The position numbers and the translations under genes were made by a program. From NCBI GenBank assembly GCA_902761755.1, contig CACWLP010000021.1, positions 1 to 38,695 of the forward strand: DNA of 38,695 bases. Reading direction: 5' to 3'. Under the pieces are notes generated by a model. The model saw only the letters and a list, made by a program, of their open reading frames with translations, made no database searches and was not told where the DNA came from. Shown here piece after piece: positions 26,072 through 38,695 of the stretch; positions within the stretch are counted from its first letter, which is position 1, and the number at the start of each line of letters is the position of its first letter. The stretch is from an uncultured Eubacteriales bacterium (GTDB lineage: Bacteria; Bacillota; Clostridia; Christensenellales; Aristaeellaceae).

Positions 26072-27970
26072 TTATTCCTGACTGAGAACGTAGAGCGCAG
26101 CCACTTCGCCGGCGATCTTGCCGAACACCACGAAATCCGCCACGGCGTTGCCGCCCAGGCGGTTGCCGCCGTGGACGCCGCCGGTGACCTCGCCCGCGGC
26201 GAAGAGGCCGGGGATGGGCTGGCCGTCCGCGTTCAGCACATGGGTCCCGCTGTCAATGCACAATCCGCCCATGGTGTGGTGGATGCCGGCGGTGACCTTC
26301 ACCGCGTAGAAAGGCGCGGTATCCAGGGGCGCGGCGAAGCTGGTGCGGCCGAAGTCCGGATCGTTCTTTTCCGCCACGAAGCCGTTCCATTTCTCCATGG
26401 TGGCCCTGAAGGCGTCGGCGGGGATGCCCAGCTCTTCCGCCAGGGCTTCATAGGAATCGCCCTGCAGCATCAGGCCGCGGGAAATGTAGCCCTGGATGAC
26501 GGAGGAAGCGTCCACCATCTTCTGATCCACCACCAGCCAGGAGAAGGAGCCGGGCTGGGCGATCTCGGCGGCGGAAACCACGTCGCGGGTGCCCACTTCG
26601 TCGATGAAGCGCTCGCCGTTGGCGTTCACCAGGATGGCGCCGTCGCCCCGCAGGCCTTCGGTGATCAGGGAGGCGGTGTCCGCCTGCACGGTGGGATGGA
26701 TCTGGATCTGGTCCATATCCACGGTGGCGGCGCCCAGCGCCTGGGCCATCAGGATGCCCTGGCCCTGGATGCCGGAGGCGTTGGTGGTCATGAAGCCCGC
26801 CAGTTCGGGCTTGTACTGCACCACCATATCCAGGTTCGCGCCGAAGCCGCCGGTGGCCAGGATCACGGCCTTGGCGCTGACGGTGACTTTATTGCCGGTC
26901 TTGCCCTCTGCCTCGATGCCCAGGGCCGCGCCGGTATTGTCGGTGAGGATTTTGGTGGCGGTGGTATCCAGCAGCAGGGTGATGTTCTCCCGCTCCGTCA
27001 GGGCCTTTTCCAGCCGCGGCACCACGTACGCGCCCACGGAAACCACCTTGCCCTCGTCGTTCACCGGGCGGTGGATGCGCTTCACCGACGCGCCGCCGAA
27101 GGCCGCCACGTTGTTCAGGTCGATGCCCAGGGTGGCCAGGTATTCGATGGCCGCTTCGCTGTTGCATACCAGCGTATTCACCAGATCCGGGTCGTTCAGC
27201 CCTTTGCCCCCGATGAGGGTGTCCAGCTCGAACAGCTCGGTGGAATCGAAATAGCCTTCCGGCTTCTCCTGATACGCCGTCCACTGCTCCCGCACCGTTT
27301 CGGCCAGCATCTGGATCTTTTCGTTATCGGAATAGGCTTCAGCGGCTTTCAGGGTCTTTTCCACGCCGGCGGCTTCGCCGAATTCATTCTTGTCCTGATA
27401 GACGGTTTTCGCGGCGTTCATGCCGCCGGTGGATTTGACGGAGTTGCCGCCCACGGCGGGCTGGCTTTCGATTACAACCACCTTGCACCCCATGTCCGCG
27501 GCCACGATGGCGGCGGTCATGCCCGCGCCGCCGGCGCCCACGACCACCACGTCCGCTTCCAGCGCCACGTCCTCGGCCTGATCGGAAACGTATTCCCGCA
27601 TGTAGTCGTTGGCGTTCACGCCCGCCGCGGTCAGGGCGGCGAGGGCGGCCTCGATGACGGCTTTGCGGGTAATGGAGGCGAAGGTGGCCCCGGTGTAGGT
27701 GTCCACAATGCCATTGGCCTCCACGAAGGCTTCCGGCCATTCCGCCACGATGTTGCTGCCGATGCCCTGGGTTTCATTGGGGCCCTCGATGTCCACGATG
27801 GTGATGACGCCGTCCGCCAGGGTGACGGTGACGGTCACGTCCCCGCCGAAGCCCTTGGCCGTGCCGGTGCCGGTGACGGAAGTGACCTCGGTGGTTTCCG
27901 CCAGCGCGGCGGACAGGCCGCCCAGCAGCATCACCGCCGCGATGAAGAATGCCAGTATCCGTTTTGCCAT
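26072..27970 (-). CDS. Exported fumarate reductase-like flavoprotein with FMN-binding domain
   Basis: The 632-residue protein has a signal peptide (MAKRILAFFIAAVMLLGGLS). Residues about 30-115 form an FMN-binding domain with the flavin-attachment motif DTYTGAT (90-96; Thr96 is the expected acceptor). The FAD domain starts with VVVGAGGAG (142-150). Active-site parts match fumarate reductases: IHPT near 425, EGLRGDGAILVN with the catalytic Arg near 440, ERFIDE, and HHTMGG near 563. No CxxCH haem motif is present. Such proteins receive electrons at the outer membrane face in flavin-based extracellular respiration; ApbE, which attaches FMN, is not in the window. Fumarate or a similar enoate is the likely acceptor. 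Confidence 0.92.
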   Translation of the reverse strand: MAKRILAFFIAAVMLLGGLSAALAETTEVTSVTGTGTAKGFGGDVTVTVTLADGVITIVDIEGPNETQGIGSNIVAEWPEAFVEANGIVDTYTGATFASITRKAVIEAALAALTAAGVNANDYMREYVSDQAEDVALEADVVVVGAGGAGMTAAIVAADMGCKVVVIESQPAVGGNSVKSTGGMNAAKTVYQDKNEFGEAAGVEKTLKAAEAYSDNEKIQMLAETVREQWTAYQEKPEGYFDSTELFELDTLIGGKGLNDPDLVNTLVCNSEAAIEYLATLGIDLNNVAAFGGASVKRIHRPVNDEGKVVSVGAYVVPRLEKALTERENITLLLDTTATKILTDNTGAALGIEAEGKTGNKVTVSAKAVILATGGFGANLDMVVQYKPELAGFMTTNASGIQGQGILMAQALGAATVDMDQIQIHPTVQADTASLITEGLRGDGAILVNANGERFIDEVGTRDVVSAAEIAQPGSFSWLVVDQKMVDASSVIQGYISRGLMLQGDSYEALAEELGIPADAFRATMEKWNGFVAEKNDPDFGRTSFAAPLDTAPFYAVKVTAGIHHTMGGLCIDSGTHVLNADGQPIPGLFAAGEVTGGVHGGNRLGGNAVADFVVFGKIAGEVAALYVLSQE

Positions 27971-28103: not shown

Positions 28104-28132
28104 ATTATACCGAACAATGCGAAAAAGCGCAA
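28104..28132 (-). promoter_or_regulatory. Promoter of the FMN-flavoprotein gene
   Basis: On the minus strand TTGCGC (28132-28127), 17 bp, TATAAT (28109-28104). It starts directly after the T run of the rpsR terminator. Confidence 0.75.
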
Positions 28133-28159
28133 GAAAAAAGCGCCGAAAATATCGGCGCT
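28133..28159 (-). terminator. Terminator of the rpsF-ssb-rpsR operon
   Basis: On the minus strand AGCGCCGA (28159-28152) pairs with TCGGCGCT (28146-28139), followed by six T. Confidence 0.93.
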
Positions 28160-28176
28160 TGCGGATGCGGTTTTTG

Positions 28177-28343
28177 TCAGTCCACCGTGTAGGGCAGCAG
28201 CGCGATGGCACGGGCGCGCTTGATGGCCTCGCTCAGCTGACGCTGATGCTTGGCGCAGTTGCCGGTCATACGGCGGGGCATACTTTACGGCGGGGGCGCT
28301 TGCCGCGGGGACGCGGGCGCTTTTCGCCACGATCTTCAGACAT
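28177..28343 (-). pseudogene. rpsR: rpsR (ribosomal protein S18) with internal deletion
   Basis: From ATG 28343, behind GGAGG, the frame reads [20 protein letters not shown], then VCPAV and a stop at 28266, 25 residues in all. In the next frame the S18 C terminus is intact: [20 protein letters not shown] and ending ALLPYTVD, stop at 28177. About 25-30 residues of the middle of S18 (the part with the IDYKD and GKIL segments in other species) are missing and the two ends are out of frame. TGC at the junction fits a microhomology deletion. S18 is normally essential, so a second rpsR, a mixed population or an assembly error must be considered. Position after rpsF and ssb is the standard one. Confidence 0.88.
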
Positions 28344-28380
28344 GATTGTTTCCTCCTTCATTCAAGATTTCCGTAAGGCA

Positions 28381-28833
28381 TCAGAAAGGCAGATCCTCAT
28401 CCTCCACCTGCACAAAGCCGCCGCCCTGGGGCGCGGAGCCCACGTTCGCGTTCTGCTGACGGGGCGCGGCCGCCGCGGGGGCGTTATAGGCGGGCGCTTC
28501 GCCCGCTTCCCCCCGGGGAGTCAGGAATTCCACGTCGTCCGCCTGTACCTCCAGGCTGGCCCGGGCAGTGCCGTCGTTGGCCGTATAGGCGCTGGCGCTG
28601 ACCGTGCCCACCACGGCCACCTTGCGGCCCTTGGCGAGATACTTGGCGCAGATATCGCCCAGCTGCCGCCAGGCGGTGATGCGGAAGAAATCCGCTTCCG
28701 GCTGGCCGGCCTCGGCGTTATTGCTGCGGCGGCGGTTCACGGCGATGGTGAAGGAGCACACGCTGACGCCGCTCTGGGTGGTGCGCTGCTCCGGATCGCG
28801 GGTGAGATTGCCGATCAAAAAGACCTTGTTCAT
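28381..28833 (-). CDS. ssb: Single-stranded DNA-binding protein
   Basis: The 150-residue protein starts MNKVFLIGNLTRDPEQRTT, a typical OB-fold start, and continues with SFTIAVNRRR and DFFRITAWRQLGDICAKYLAKG to about residue 107. A flexible Ala/Gln/Gly tail leads to the acidic tip EDEDLPF used to recruit DNA repair partners. It binds single-stranded DNA as a tetramer during replication. It lies between rpsF and rpsR as in most Bacillota, with AGG-rich ribosome sites in both gaps. Confidence 0.97.
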   Translation of the reverse strand: MNKVFLIGNLTRDPEQRTTQSGVSVCSFTIAVNRRRSNNAEAGQPEADFFRITAWRQLGDICAKYLAKGRKVAVVGTVSASAYTANDGTARASLEVQADDVEFLTPRGEAGEAPAYNAPAAAAPRQQNANVGSAPQGGGFVQVEDEDLPF

Positions 28834-28848
28834 GTTCGCTCCTCCCGT

Positions 28849-29283
28849 TTACTCAGCGGCAGGGGTTTCCGCGGGCGCTTCTTCAGCGGCAGGGGCAGCT
28901 TCAGCAGCGGGCGCGGCATCGGCGGCGGGAGCTTCCTCTGCCACGGGGGCAGCAACGGGAGCGGGCCGCACGGCGCGGGGCTTGATGCCCACCTTGCGCT
29001 CGATCTGCCGAATCACCTGATAGCGAATGACGCTTTCGGAAATCTGAAGGTTGCGCTCCAGTTCCTTGGGAAGCTCAGCCTCGCCCTGGAAGTTCACCAG
29101 CACATAGTAGCCCTCGGTTTTGTAGTCGATGGCATAGGCCAGGCGGCGCTTGCCCCATTCCTCCACCTTGTCCACGCTGCCGCCGTTGTTGGCGATCAGA
29201 TCGTTGAACTTGGCGATCAGGGCCTTGCGCTCATCTTCCTCCACAGCAGGATCGATGATGTACACCACTTCATACTTGTTCAT
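28849..29283 (-). CDS. rpsF: Ribosomal protein S6 with Ala/Glu/Pro-rich tail
   Basis: The 144-residue protein starts at ATG 29283 behind AGGAGGTG. Residues 1-98 are the S6 fold: MNKYEVVYIIDPAVEEDER, WGKRRLAYAIDYKTEGYYVL, and VIRYQVIR. S6 pairs with S18 on the platform of the 30S subunit. From about residue 105 a low-complexity tail follows (VAAPVAEEAPAADAAPAAEA and on), longer than the usual S6 end. The gene opens the rpsF-ssb-rpsR operon. Its partner S18 gene in this operon is broken. Confidence 0.96.
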   Translation of the reverse strand: MNKYEVVYIIDPAVEEDERKALIAKFNDLIANNGGSVDKVEEWGKRRLAYAIDYKTEGYYVLVNFQGEAELPKELERNLQISESVIRYQVIRQIERKVGIKPRAVRPAPVAAPVAEEAPAADAAPAAEAAPAAEEAPAETPAAE

Positions 29284-29351
29284 TCTTTTCACCTCCTCAT
29301 GGACGTATGGCGTCCCGACGTTGGCAGGACGCAAGGATGTGCCAATTAAGA

Positions 29352-30515: not shown

Positions 30516-33023
30516 TTATTTGTTGTCCTCGGTGACGGCCTGGGCCGCGGTCCGGCCGGAGACGAAGATCTCCACGATGGCGTTGCCGCCCAGACGGTTG
30601 CCGCCGTGGATGCCGCCGGTGACCTCGCCCGCCGCATACAGGCCAGGGATGATGTCGCCGTCCGTGTTCAGCACGTGACGGTTCACATCCACCTTCAGGC
30701 CGCCCATGGTATGGTGGGTGGAGGGAGCCATGAGACGGATGGTCAGCACAGTGTTGTCCAGATCGTAGGTATCGGGCAGATACTTGCCGTTCTCATCCTT
30801 CTCCACATTGCCCACCGTACGGGAAGCGATGCCCTTGCCCACGTCTGGATATTCGCCCAGGCCCATGACCGCGGCGTCGTAATCCCGGATGGTCTGGATC
30901 ACCACGTCGGGATCGGCGGCGATGCCCAGCTCGGCGAAGAGCGCGGGCAGGTCGGCGATGGTGCGGCGATAGTAACGGCCGGGATAATCGCCCTCGGCCA
31001 GCTGCATGGGCGCAGGCATGAGCTGTTCCTTATTGTAGAACTCCAGGAACACGCCGGGCGTGCCGTTGACCACCATGCCGTTGCGGAATTCGGCCAGGGA
31101 CAGCACGTCGCGTTCGCTGCCTTCATCCACGAAACGGTGGCCGGTGTTGGGGTTGATCCAGCAGGCGTAGTTGCCGCCGCCGAAGGCCAGGTTGCCGTTG
31201 TCCACCCAGGAAATGGGCATCAGCTGGGTGAAGCCCATGCCGGTCACGTCCGCGCCCACAGCCTGGGCCATGCGGATGCCGTCGCCCACCAGGGCGGAAC
31301 GGTTGGTGGTCTTGGTGGAAGCGGTCAGGTATTCCTCGGACCAGTACACGTTGTTTTCCAGCACCATGGGGATATTGGCGGCATAACCGCCGGTGGCCAG
31401 GATGACGCCCTTGGTCGCCCGGGCGGTCACTTCCGTGCCGTCGTACCGGGTGGCCTTCACGCCCACCACGCGGCCGTCTTCCACGATCAGCTCGTTGGCG
31501 GTGGTGCGCAGCATGATTTCATTCTGCTCGTTGGCCTTGATGGTGCTCATGGGCGCCATGAAGTAAGCGCCCCAGCGGCCCTGCTCCCTGGTGAATTCGT
31601 TTTCACGATACCACAGCGCGCCGATCAGGGTCTGCTGCGAATCCTCGTAGAACGCGGCGCCCTGGGCTTCCAGCCATTCCTTCAGGCCCTGGCCGCCCAG
31701 GATGAACTGCTTCACCAGATCCACGTCGCCGTAGATCCATTCGCTGCCGTCGGCAGAGGGACGCAGGCCGCCGTAGTAGGTCTGGAAGATGTGCAGGTTC
31801 AGGGTGGAGAACAGCGTGAGCTTGCTTTCGTCCATGCCGGAAGCCAGCTTGGGCGCGGCCCAGGCGAAGTATTCCTTGATTTCCGCCTTCAGGGCCTGCA
31901 GCGTGGGCAGGTATTCGGCGTGCACGCCGTGCTTGCTCAGCTCTTCCGCGTCGCCCGCCACGAACTCGTGGGTCTTGTAGTATTCTTCGTCGAAGGGCTC
32001 CTCGCTCCAGTGCAGGATGATGTTGAGCTCCTTGATGCAACCCTGGACGGACTTGACCTTATCGTAGGTTTCGCCGGTGAATTCGTACACGCCGGTGGTG
32101 GCGTCGGGATCATCGGGATTCCAGACCAGGTAGGGCATCACGCTCTGATACTGGCCGCCGGACACCAGGGTGTTGCCGCCCACTTCGGCGTTCTTTTCGA
32201 TGACCAGCACGGTGTTGCCGTCCTGGGCGGCCTGGGCCGCGGCAGCGATGCCGGCGCCGCCGGCGCCTACCACCACCACATCGAACGTCACGTCAATGGG
32301 ATCCTGGGCCGTATGCTCCACCTTGGCGGCCTTGAAGGCTTCCAGGTTGGTACATTCCGCCTGCTGGGCGGCGTCGTTCACCGCGCTGCGCAGGGCGCGG
32401 GCGGAGAAGGTGGCGCCGGAAACGCCGTCCACGCCGGAGCCGCCCGCTTCGATCATTTCGGGGATCATGATGTCAAAGGCCACGTCGCCCACGTGGGCGG
32501 TTTCGGTGCTGTTCACCACTTCGATGTTCTCCAGCTTGCTGTCGCTGAAGGTGACCTTGAAGGTGCTCACGCCGTTGTAGCCTTCGCCGGAGACTTCGTA
32601 TTCGCCGGCCTTGAAGCCGATCTCAGCTGCAGGCTCGGCCGTGCCTTCGCCCTTGGCCTTGGCGAACGCGGCGGTGAGGCCTTCCTTCACGGCGCCGCGG
32701 GTCACGGCGGCGAAGGTGGCGCTGGTCATTACATCCGCGCCCAGATCGTCCACCTTGGCGATGGCTTCTTCTTCGCTCAGGCCGATGAGCTGCTCCTTCA
32801 CGGCATCGGCGATCACGCCGCCGATGCTGGGCGTCTCGTCATGGGATACTTCCAGCGCGGTGATGGCCTTGTCGTCCACCGTCACCGTCACCTTCACGCC
32901 GCCCATGAAGCCGTCGCCGGAGCCTTCGTACGTGCCGGGAACAAGCGCGCCTTCCGCGGACGCGATCCCCATCACGCCCAGGGCCAGGCACAGCGCAAGG
33001 AACAGAGCAACGAGTTTCTTCAT
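30516..33023 (-). CDS. Exported flavoprotein reductase with two FMN-binding domains
   Basis: The 835-residue protein starts behind GAGGAGGAG and has a signal peptide (MKKLVALFLALCLALGVMGI). Two FMN-binding domains follow: the first holds DVMTSAT (97-103), the second DGVSGAT (199-205). The FAD domain begins VVVGAGGAG (250-258). Compared with the 632-residue paralogue, the IHPT position reads LMPISW (near 603) and the RGDGAILVN stretch reads FGGGNYACWINP (near 615), so the catalytic Arg of fumarate reductases seems absent; HHTMGG is kept (near 770). I infer a reductase for another acceptor, with two flavins as a possible electron relay. The first FMN site has Ser for the usual Gly. Confidence 0.92.
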   Translation of the reverse strand: MKKLVALFLALCLALGVMGIASAEGALVPGTYEGSGDGFMGGVKVTVTVDDKAITALEVSHDETPSIGGVIADAVKEQLIGLSEEEAIAKVDDLGADVMTSATFAAVTRGAVKEGLTAAFAKAKGEGTAEPAAEIGFKAGEYEVSGEGYNGVSTFKVTFSDSKLENIEVVNSTETAHVGDVAFDIMIPEMIEAGGSGVDGVSGATFSARALRSAVNDAAQQAECTNLEAFKAAKVEHTAQDPIDVTFDVVVVGAGGAGIAAAAQAAQDGNTVLVIEKNAEVGGNTLVSGGQYQSVMPYLVWNPDDPDATTGVYEFTGETYDKVKSVQGCIKELNIILHWSEEPFDEEYYKTHEFVAGDAEELSKHGVHAEYLPTLQALKAEIKEYFAWAAPKLASGMDESKLTLFSTLNLHIFQTYYGGLRPSADGSEWIYGDVDLVKQFILGGQGLKEWLEAQGAAFYEDSQQTLIGALWYRENEFTREQGRWGAYFMAPMSTIKANEQNEIMLRTTANELIVEDGRVVGVKATRYDGTEVTARATKGVILATGGYAANIPMVLENNVYWSEEYLTASTKTTNRSALVGDGIRMAQAVGADVTGMGFTQLMPISWVDNGNLAFGGGNYACWINPNTGHRFVDEGSERDVLSLAEFRNGMVVNGTPGVFLEFYNKEQLMPAPMQLAEGDYPGRYYRRTIADLPALFAELGIAADPDVVIQTIRDYDAAVMGLGEYPDVGKGIASRTVGNVEKDENGKYLPDTYDLDNTVLTIRLMAPSTHHTMGGLKVDVNRHVLNTDGDIIPGLYAAGEVTGGIHGGNRLGGNAIVEIFVSGRTAAQAVTEDNK

Positions 33024-33943: not shown

Positions 33944-34118
33944 ATCGTCGGCGTCTTTCCCTTCGGGCCCGTCGCCTGATTATTATGCCATAATCGTCGG
34001 CGTCTTTCCCTTCGGGCCCGTCGCCTGATTATTATACCATAATCGTCGGCGTCTTTCCCTTCGGGAGCCGCCGACCCGGCCGACGGCCCTCCGGGCCCGT
34101 CGCCTGATTATTATACCA
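33944..34118 (-). repeat. Three tandem hairpin repeats with TATAAT boxes before the aquaporin gene
   Basis: Copies begin at 33944, 33993 and 34042, a period of 49 bp; each reads ATCGTCGGCGTCTTTCCCTT, CGGG and on to CGCCTGATTATTAT on the plus strand. The third copy carries an extra stretch of about 28 bp (around 34067-34094) rich in GCCGAC/GTCGGC. On the minus strand each unit gives TGGTATAAT (CATAAT in the first copy), the -10 part of a promoter. The 302 bases between the aquaporin and acetyltransferase genes hold no gene. Confidence 0.88.
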
Positions 34119-34138
34119 CGGCATCCAATCGCTGGCAA
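34110..34138 (-). promoter_or_regulatory. Main promoter of the aquaporin gene with AT-rich upstream tract
   Basis: On the minus strand TTGCCA (34138-34133), 17 bp, TATAAT (34115-34110). Upstream (34140-34190) are repeated A/T tracts such as AAATATT, GAAAAATATT and AAGAAAAT, in a locally AT-rich stretch, a possible UP element. The leader runs through all three repeats. Confidence 0.75.
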
Positions 34139-34189
34139 TAGGAAAATTCATATTTTCGTAATATTTTTCAACATTTTCTTAATATATGC

Positions 34190-34216
34190 AAAAAGCGCCG
34201 GCAGCCCGAAGCAGCG
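34190..34216 (-). terminator. Probable terminator after the acetyltransferase gene
   Basis: On the minus strand CGCTG (34216-34212) pairs with CGGCG (34200-34196) with one wobble, followed by CTTTTTG. It is a weak stem but stands directly after the stop codon. Confidence 0.5.
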
Positions 34217-34220
34217 TCCC

Positions 34221-34781
34221 TCATTCGCCTTCTTCCAGCAGGCACGGATACAGGCTGTAATCCACGGTGCCGCAGATGCCGTCCAATCCGCCGGGAACCA
34301 GGGGCGCAGCCATCAGGCAGTCGATGTGGGGCAGGTGCACGGTGGGCCCGGGCAGGATGCCGTGATCCGCCGCCGTTTCAAAGCCCCGGGCACGGTAGTT
34401 GCGGGGGTCTCCCTCCACGATGGCCGCCCGGAAGCCCATCCCCGCAGCCTTCTGCATGCCGTATTCCAGCAGATCCCGGGAAATGTGCCGGCGCTGCAGT
34501 TCCGTTTTCACCGCCACGGGCGTCAGCAGCAGCAGCTCGTTTTCGTGCTTCCCCTCCAGGGGGAACCGGGAAAACATGGCGTAGCCGATGATCTCGTCCG
34601 TTTCATCGGCCATCATCAGCTCCAGCTCAGCCACATAATATCGCCCCGTCCGGATCTCCTCCGTCAGCCGCCGCACGAACCGCCCTTCCCGGGCGGAATC
34701 GTGCTCGGTAAACACCCGCTCCACGAAGTCCAGGGCGGCGGCGCGGTGCTTTCCGGACACCGTTTTGATGATCCTTTCCAT
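34221..34781 (-). CDS. GNAT-family N-acetyltransferase
   Basis: The 186-residue protein starts at ATG 34781 behind GAAGGAGGG. The GNAT core is visible: EIIGYAMFSRF (strand 3-4), LLLTPVAVKTELQRRHISRD with a modified acetyl-CoA loop (QRRHIS for the usual Q/RxxGxG/A), LLEYGMQKAAGMGFRAAIVEGDPRNYRARGFETA near 95-135. It resembles YhbS-type acetyltransferases. It follows a 54-residue membrane protein by 15 bases. The substrate cannot be told. Confidence 0.88.
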   Translation of the reverse strand: MERIIKTVSGKHRAAALDFVERVFTEHDSAREGRFVRRLTEEIRTGRYYVAELELMMADETDEIIGYAMFSRFPLEGKHENELLLLTPVAVKTELQRRHISRDLLEYGMQKAAGMGFRAAIVEGDPRNYRARGFETAADHGILPGPTVHLPHIDCLMAAPLVPGGLDGICGTVDYSLYPCLLEEGE

Positions 34782-34796
34782 GCGCAGCGCCCTCCT

Positions 34797-34961
34797 TCAG
34801 CCGTCCCGGAACACCCGGTCCCGCTTGACTTCCTTTTCCTCGATCTCGATCCCGTGCCGGGTGCTCCGCCGGGTGGTGACCCGGGCCAGCAGCCGGTAAA
34901 CCATCACGATCATAAACACCGGGATCAAAATGATCAGGATAAACGGCAGGATCACATCCAT
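34797..34961 (-). CDS. Small single-pass membrane protein
   Basis: The 54-residue protein starts at ATG 34961 behind GAGGAGAGG; a second possible ATG four bases on is out of frame. Residues 4-26 (ILPFILIILIPVFMIVMVYR) form one membrane helix, followed by a highly charged tail with basic and acidic residues (RRSTRHGIEIEEKEVKRDRV). I recognise no family. A clear ribosome site, codon use like its neighbours and the short gap to the acetyltransferase gene support it as real. Confidence 0.7.
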   Translation of the reverse strand: MDVILPFILIILIPVFMIVMVYRLLARVTTRRSTRHGIEIEEKEVKRDRVFRDG

Positions 34962-34996
34962 GCTTTCCTCTCCTCTCGTTCCTCCGCGCCGCCCTG

Positions 34997-35030
34997 AACA
35001 AACGCCCCGCCAGTTACCCGGCGGGGCGTT
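34997..35030 (-). terminator. Terminator after rplA
   Basis: On the minus strand CGCCCCGCC (35028-35020) pairs with GGCGGGGCG (35011-35003), followed by TTTGTTC. rplJ and rplL, which often follow rplA, are not present after it. Confidence 0.85.
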
Positions 35031-35044
35031 TGCTTGAAGTGCGA

Positions 35045-35734
35045 TCAGAACTTCAGGCTGTTGATCTTGATGGCGGGGCCCATGGTGCTGCTCATGTACA
35101 GCGATTTGATGTAGGTCCCCTTGGCGGTGGCGGGCTTGGCCTTGATCACCGCTTCCATCAGGGTGGTCATGTTCTCCACCAGCTTATCGCTGTCGAAGGA
35201 GACCTTGCCGATGGGGCAGTGCGCGATGGCGGTCTTGTCGATGCGGTACTCCACTTTACCGGCTTTGATCTCCTGGATCGCTTTGGTCACGTCCATGGTC
35301 ACGGTGCCGGATTTGGGGTTGGGCATCAGGCCCTTGGGGCCCAGCAGACGCGCGATGCGGCCGATGGTGCCCATCATGTCGGGCGTCGCAACGCAGACGT
35401 CAAAGTCAAACCAGTTCTCGCTCTGGATCTTGGCCACCAGATCGGCTTCGCCCACGATATCGGCGCCGGCGGCTTCGGCTTCCTTGGCCTTTTCGCCCTT
35501 GGCGAACACCAGCACGCGCACCTTTTTGCCCGTGCCGTGGGGCAGCACCACCGTGCCGCGGACCTGCTGGTCGGCGTGCCGGGGGTCGACGCCCAGGCGG
35601 ATGCTCAGCTCGATGGTCTCATCGAACTTCGCTTTAGCGGTCTGCTTCACCAGCTCGATGGCCTCGGCGGGATCATACAGCTTGGTAGAGTCGATCAGCT
35701 TTTTGCTGTCGGTATATTTCTTGCCGTGTTTCAT
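35045..35734 (-). CDS. rplA: Ribosomal protein L1
   Basis: The 229-residue protein starts behind GGGAGGAATG. Family hallmarks are [20 protein letters not shown] at the start, [20 protein letters not shown], and the signature [20 protein letters not shown] followed by SGTVT. L1 builds the mobile stalk at the E site of the 50S subunit and in many bacteria represses its own operon. It is the last gene of the cluster here. Confidence 0.98.
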
Positions 35735-37477: not shown

Positions 37478-38692
37478 TTATTCCACCATGCGAACCACGG
37501 CGCCGGCGCCCACGGTGTGGCCGCCTTCGCGGATGGCGAAGCGGAGGCCCGCTTCGATGGCGATGGGGGTGATCAGTTCCACTTCCATTTCCACGTTGTC
37601 GCCGGGCATCACCATCTCAACGCCCTCGGGCAGCTTGATGGAGCCGGTCACGTCCGTGGTGCGGAAGAAGAACTGCGGACGGTACCCGTTGAAGAACGGG
37701 GTGTGACGGCCGCCCTCTTCCTTCTTCAGCACGTACACCTGGCCGAAGAAGTGGGTATGGGGCTTGATGCTGCCGGGCTTCGCCAGCACCTGGCCGCGCT
37801 CGATCTCGTTCCGCTGCACACCGCGCAGCAGCGCGCCGATGTTGTCGCCCGCCTGCGCGTCGTCCAGCAGCTTGTGGAACATTTCCACGCCCGTGACCAC
37901 CGTGCTCCTGGGCTTATCCATCAGGCCCACGATTTCCACGGTATCCGACACCTTCACCATGCCGCGCTCGATACGGCCCGTCGCCACGGTGCCGCGGCCC
38001 GTGATGGAGAACACGTCTTCCACAGGCATCAGGAACGGCTTATCCTTGTCGCGTTCCGGCGTGGGAATGTAGTTGTCCACTTCCTTCATCAGCTCGTAAA
38101 TGCACTGGCACTCCGGCGCGTTCTTCGGATCGCTGCCGTCGTTCTGCATGTATTCCAGCGCCTTGAGCGCAGAGCCCTTCACGATCGGAATGTCGTCGCC
38201 CGGGAAGTCGTAGCTGCTCAGCAGATCACGCACTTCCATCTCCACCAGCTCCAGCAGTTCCTCGTCGTCCATCAGGTCGATCTTGTTCAAGAACACCACG
38301 ATGTAAGGCACGCCCACCTGACGCGCCAGCAGGATGTGCTCGCGGGTCTGCGGCATCGGGCCGTCCGGAGCAGACACCAGCAGGATCGCGCCGTCCATCT
38401 GCGCAGCGCCCGTGATCATGTTCTTCACGTAGTCGGCATGGCCGGGGCAGTCCACGTGTGCATAGTGACGGGTCTCCGTCTCGTATTCCACGTGCGCCGT
38501 GTTGATGGTGATTCCGCGCGCCTTCTCTTCAGGCGCCTTGTCGATTTCGTCGTACTTCATCGCCTGGGCATGTCCGCCCGCCGCCAGCACCATCGTGATG
38601 GCCGCCGTCAGCGTCGTCTTGCCGTGGTCCACGTGCCCGATCGTGCCGATGTTCACGTGCGGCTTATTGCGCTCAAATTTCTCCTTTGCCAT
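37478..38692 (-). CDS. tuf: Elongation factor Tu
   Basis: The 404-residue GTPase is complete; its start codon lies three bases before the window edge, so its promoter is not seen. G1 is GHVDHGKTT, the switch I region holds [10 protein letters not shown]3 is DCPGHADY, and G4 is NKIDL. It brings aminoacyl-tRNA to the ribosome. A short insert near 180-200 ([10 protein letters not shown]) is present between the G domain end and domain 2. It opens the tuf-rpmG-secE-nusG-rplK-rplA series on the minus strand. Confidence 0.99.
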
Positions 38693-38695
38693 GGG

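Follow-up and report, generated by a model that had tools for sequence, protein, structure and literature searches.

The broken rpsR gene of an uncultured Aristaeellaceae genome is most probably a local assembly error

Results

The rpsF-ssb-rpsR operon and its contig

The stretch of DNA analysed here (the window, 38,695 nucleotides) is an entire contig, C21, of a 2.2-Mb draft genome that comprises 46 contigs and is 73.27% complete. It carries the genes for ribosomal protein S6, single-stranded DNA-binding protein and ribosomal protein S18 in the order rpsF-ssb-rpsR (Table 1). This order is native, as judged by Pfam matches to the neighbouring genes, and DNA matches place the same genes in the same order in congeners. 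The two operon partners of rpsR had been called intact from the sequence alone, and this is confirmed by Pfam matches that cover both profiles in full. For rpsF we took the ATG at 29283 as the start; the listed open reading frame (ORF) extends to a TTG at 29334.

Two genes for FMN- and FAD-binding flavoproteins (26072–27970 and 30516–33023) flank the operon, the second lying beyond a DUF2812 gene. Among the ORFs tested at 34000–35045, we recognised no rplJ-rplL pair following rplA; this region holds a GNAT acetyltransferase ORF (34221–34781) and an ORF without a Pfam match (34627–35001). At its far end (38692–38695) the contig stops 3 bases short of the tuf ATG, so that here too a contig edge falls at a very conserved gene. 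Searches of the window genome for rplB and rpsS found neither gene.

Table 1 Features of the rpsF-ssb-rpsR region and of the contig end in the window
Feature	Position	Strand	Description
rpsR 3' part	28177–28280	-	PRRMTGNC...YTVD stop, codons from 28278; 104 bases identical to G006
rpsR junction	28278–28280	-	TGC can belong to either side; site of the 88-bp gap relative to congeners
rpsR 5' part	28281–28343	-	Codons 1–21 (ATG...KV); codon 22 is the junction TGC
ssb	28381–28833	-	Intact; Pfam SSB 2.1e-32, positions 1–104 of 104
rpsF (S6)	28849–29283	-	Intact; Pfam Ribosomal_S6 4.7e-34, positions 1–90 of 90, tested on 28849–29286
tuf (EF-Tu)	37478–38692	-	Identified by Pfam; ATG 3 bases from contig end

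The break in rpsR

We aligned the window rpsR (28177–28343) with the genes of five congeners, of which two (G004 and G006) are also broken. The window gene lacks 88 bp relative to congeners, or 29 codons plus one base, which correspond to residues 23–51 of 84. Read from 28343, the 5' frame encodes the first 22 codons followed by PAV and a stop, 25 residues in total. A different frame holds the final 33 codons of S18, which run from 28278 to the stop at 28177–28179, and the window as assembled contains no full-length single open frame for bS18. An initial sequence-only reading had described a gene without its middle third and with its frame lost, and had put the missing part at 80–95 bases; the alignment bears out each of these points. 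The Pfam S18 profile (PF01084) matches the 3' half with 51.1 bits (cut-off 21), over columns 24–52 of 52 only.

Neither half has decayed: there are zero amino-acid differences from the commonest congener sequence, and residues 1–22 are the same as in 21 of the 22 intact congeners, with G044 differing at one residue. The window contains no Ns. At the junction, where DNA matches to congeners such as G003, G042 and G044 overlap at query positions 289–291 and leave a subject gap of 85, the TGC fits either side, just as had been noticed at first. The idea of a microhomology deletion, proposed on that basis, is weak, since the match is only 3 bases long and no microhomology is apparent in the alignment at the deletion junctions of G004 and G006. 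The break in the window is not due to chance.

rpsR across the genus

The comparison covered 29 genomes of the genus, the window genome (G000) included. In 22 of them rpsR is intact. Internal frameshifting deletions occur in three, and all are different: 88 bp in the window genome, 7 bp in G004 and 16 bp in G006. In two more a contig end lies inside the gene; the G009 contig starts at GCCCCGCCGTATG within rpsR, and the G012 contig carries only the C-terminal 48 codons. We did not find rpsR in the last two, of which one (G017) has a contig that breaks inside rpsF and the other (G021) yielded neither rpsF nor ssb. Three of the five breaks share their right edge: those of the window genome and G004 and the start of the G009 contig fall within about three bases, at (T)GCCCCGCCGTATG. 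Upstream of rpsR, G006 with its rpsR deletion shares 99.0% identity with G042, in which rpsR and rpsL are both whole. In 16 relatives that belong to other families of the same order, the S18 match runs free of stops from profile position 1–3 to position 52.

DNA shared up to the junction

Window positions 28177–28280 match G006 exactly and positions 28179–28280 match G020 exactly, both matches ending precisely at the junction, although upstream, over up to 800 bp, identity between the window and G006 is only 77.5%. The 3' block has an exact run of at least 60 bases in common with 17 of the 26 congeners compared, and within 28180–28278 the longest match reaches at least 86 bases in 8 of the 26. 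Congeners with an intact rpsR likewise have exact runs of at least 60 bases in common, both with the window and with each other. Across the 22 intact congeners rpsR averages 93% identity; exact runs of at least 77 bases are found in 53 of 231 pairs, and 30 of these 53 start at positions 160–175 of the gene. The whole 102-base block compared is common to only 2 of the 277 genome pairs with an upstream identity below 86% (25 genomes, 300 pairs). In the other two genes of the operon, the longest exact runs between the window and 24 congeners (the 26 minus G009 and G012) measure 16–41 bases in ssb and 33–62 bases in rpsF.

Other conserved genes

We looked at three further ribosomal protein genes, with rpsL as a control. 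None of the 26 genomes with rpsF shows an internal break in the gene, and contig ends cut two copies (G017 and G024). Internal breaks thus number 3 in the 27 genomes with any rpsR versus 0 in 26 for rpsF, counts too small for significance by themselves. By profile match rpsL, which encodes S12, is whole in 22 of the 29 genomes and was not found in four; the window's own rpsL is whole. The gene is damaged in three genomes, with 20 bp missing inside it in G006, a cut by a contig end in G002 and a split between two contig ends in G012, so that G006 and G012 are damaged in both rpsL and rpsR. The missing 20 bp in G006 (G006:C82:2800–3417) lie in the middle of the gene by comparison with G042 and shift its frame. 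Along the aligned stretch, G006 and G042 differ at two bases after the break and at none before it, and the part after the break looks as if it might come from another strain. The third gene, rpsS, points in the opposite direction: it is whole in all 17 genomes in which it was found and was not found in 12 of the 29.

Search for a second or missing S18

Profile and protein searches found no other S18 in the 46-contig, 73%-complete draft of the window genome and no further S18 in G004 or G006. A DNA search of the window genome with the middle of the gene of one congener returned the two known edges and chance-level matches, the best with E = 0.02. Across 25 genus genomes, a profile search gave no second S18 match above the cut-off save the two halves in G004. 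G015 has a weak second S18-like match, interrupted by two stops (G015:C61:542–676; 19.8 bits, cut-off 21). Because about a quarter of the window genome is missing, the absence of a second rpsR is not final. No other assembly of the window's species was found among the 29 genus genomes, in which the main congener matches to the window are 76–82% identical, or among 80 of the 571 loci of a contig scan that may omit records of the window's own genome.

Hairpins and contig chimerism

Two further origins of the break were tried and set aside. The first was a sequencing or library deletion caused by a hairpin: the intact rpsR region of G020 (261 bases) folds little better than its shuffles (z -0.91), 34 of 200 shuffles being at least as good. 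The second was a chimeric contig that joins two genomes, on which the gene order downstream of rpsR is uninformative, varying as it does among most of the congeners compared. We compared window positions 28123–29300 with the congener loci L163–L172 and L181, in which the order rpsF-ssb-rpsR is kept. Downstream of rpsR, in 12 genomes (11 congeners and the window), genes are shared only among G015, G019 and G043, and the sole other match is between the window genome and G007 (32–33%). The flavoprotein gene that adjoins rpsR (26072–27970) is on a different contig from rpsR in all 18 congeners that have a match to it (E up to 1e-60) and one to rpsR, but given this variable gene order the difference says nothing about chimerism. 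Homology to G005 and G015 continues past the rpsR stop codon to about 28123–28134, which places the 3' arm in an rpsR locus. The flavoprotein homologue of G004 (G004:C111:1809–3673) is in two adjacent, slightly overlapping pieces, residues 1–459 and 462–627, and looks frameshifted.

Discussion

A second rpsR, another way of meeting the need for S18 and a wrong assembly had been put forward side by side in the sequence-only reading. Of these, a wrong assembly has the best support; our searches revealed no second rpsR, although about 27% of the genome is missing. Our comparisons make it very probable that rpsR was broken by a local error during assembly of this draft, metagenome-type genome and that the gene was not really lost.

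How might such an error arise? Several species of the genus with nearly the same rpsR DNA would share one sample, and reads from the shared block could not be assigned to a species. The assembly graph would therefore branch at the edge of the block. There the assembler or scaffolder would either stop, leaving a contig end, or join the flanks and drop or mis-size the less conserved middle; the step that makes the false join is one that we infer. The cells themselves would carry an intact rpsR. Simple joining by overlap cannot account for every one of the three deletions, since the overlap is 3 bases here and none was seen in G004 or G006.

The draft status of the genome, with its 46 contigs, its undetected rplB and rpsS and its contig end at the start of tuf, points to an error of assembly. 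The recurrent and different rpsR breaks, together with the like damage to rpsL in congeners, appear to point the same way: different breaks at two indispensable, very conserved genes are what one would expect if the shared DNA of co-occurring relatives tangles the assembly graph, and they are unexpected if S18 and S12 are needed. The exact block that runs up to the junction, in spite of the 77.5% upstream identity to G006, likewise seems to support an assembly error. So do the right edge common to three of the breaks, the undecayed halves of the window gene and the intact rpsR of G042, which upstream is 99.0% identical to the broken G006. Several observations count against it. The gene rpsS, whose protein is very conserved, is unbroken in 17 of 17 genomes; exact runs of at least 60 bases also link congeners with an intact rpsR to the window and to one another; the internal breaks in rpsR are few; and not every assembler would normally produce a gap-free join with an overlap of 0–3 bases. 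According to the cited parts of PMC7111523, local assembly errors and gaps that are not removed make protein-coding sequences in databases incorrect, and sequences that are composites of related strains may be chimeric; k-mer graphs, according to a passage of PMC8172020, can hold paths that match no real sequence.

The gap-free join without Ns, the otherwise undecayed halves of rpsR and the junction TGC, which fits a short-homology deletion, would also agree with a real and very recent 88-bp deletion in part of the population, the rest keeping an intact rpsR and the assembler taking the broken version. We consider this unlikely. S18 is expected to be needed, and cells with the deletion should therefore not reach consensus depth. 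Junctions often show a 3-base match by chance, and if the congeners are read in the same manner, independent deletions are required in the rpsR of G004 and of G006, plus one in the rpsL of G006.

It is also very doubtful that a second, intact rpsR lies in the missing ~27% of the genome and that the window copy is a duplicate drifting freely. The incompleteness of the genome leaves room for such a copy, but the window copy shows no decay and keeps its native place in the rpsF-ssb-rpsR operon. In the 25 genus genomes, the two halves in G004 are the only instance of a second S18 match above the cut-off (the nearest other one, in G015, scores 19.8 bits). S18 is reportedly among the mycobacterial ribosomal proteins that have zinc-independent paralogues. 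Paralogues of this kind, standing beside zinc-dependent ribosomal proteins, are known in mycobacteria from the cited part of PMC8866557.

That the species lives without a full-length S18, or makes a shortened one by frameshifting over the junction, strikes us as highly improbable. No full-length S18 is encoded by the sequence as given, and the assembly yielded no further copy, yet the gene is whole in 22 of the 29 genus genomes, a frameshift product would be without residues 23–51 of 84, and the 3' half is identical in DNA to a congener that is only 77.5% alike upstream. The literature on whether S18 can be dispensed with is a mixed witness. In the cited part of PMC9035817, rpsR was left out of a first, endosymbiont-based minimal gene set, which means that the gene is not kept everywhere by that method; it is present in JCVI-syn3.0, and the authors added it to their own minimal set afterwards. 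A still bolder reading, to which we give hardly any credence, is that the intact rpsR was lost independently in several species of a single gut genus, whose ribosomes would work with no S18 or with a split or shortened one.

Biologically, the break is most likely of no consequence. It does call for caution: where a draft genome seems to have lost an indispensable, highly conserved gene, the cause can be damage from assembly. The caution applies to closely related species that may share samples, in which such damage can turn up repeatedly within a genus, in several of its genomes, and resemble a trait of the lineage.

Set beside known bS18 genes (PF01084), the window gene is alike in that both halves are clearly S18 and stand in the native rpsF-ssb-rpsR order, and it differs in being unreadable as assembled, with residues 23–51 absent and the frame lost. 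It also resembles the local assembly errors of PMC7111523 in that a contig which is otherwise sound contains a short erroneous stretch and so yields an incorrect protein-coding gene, and the cited parts of that paper have related strains in a sample confusing de Bruijn graph assemblers, much as we propose here. Those errors were identified by missing read support, whereas the present case rests on comparison across 29 genomes.
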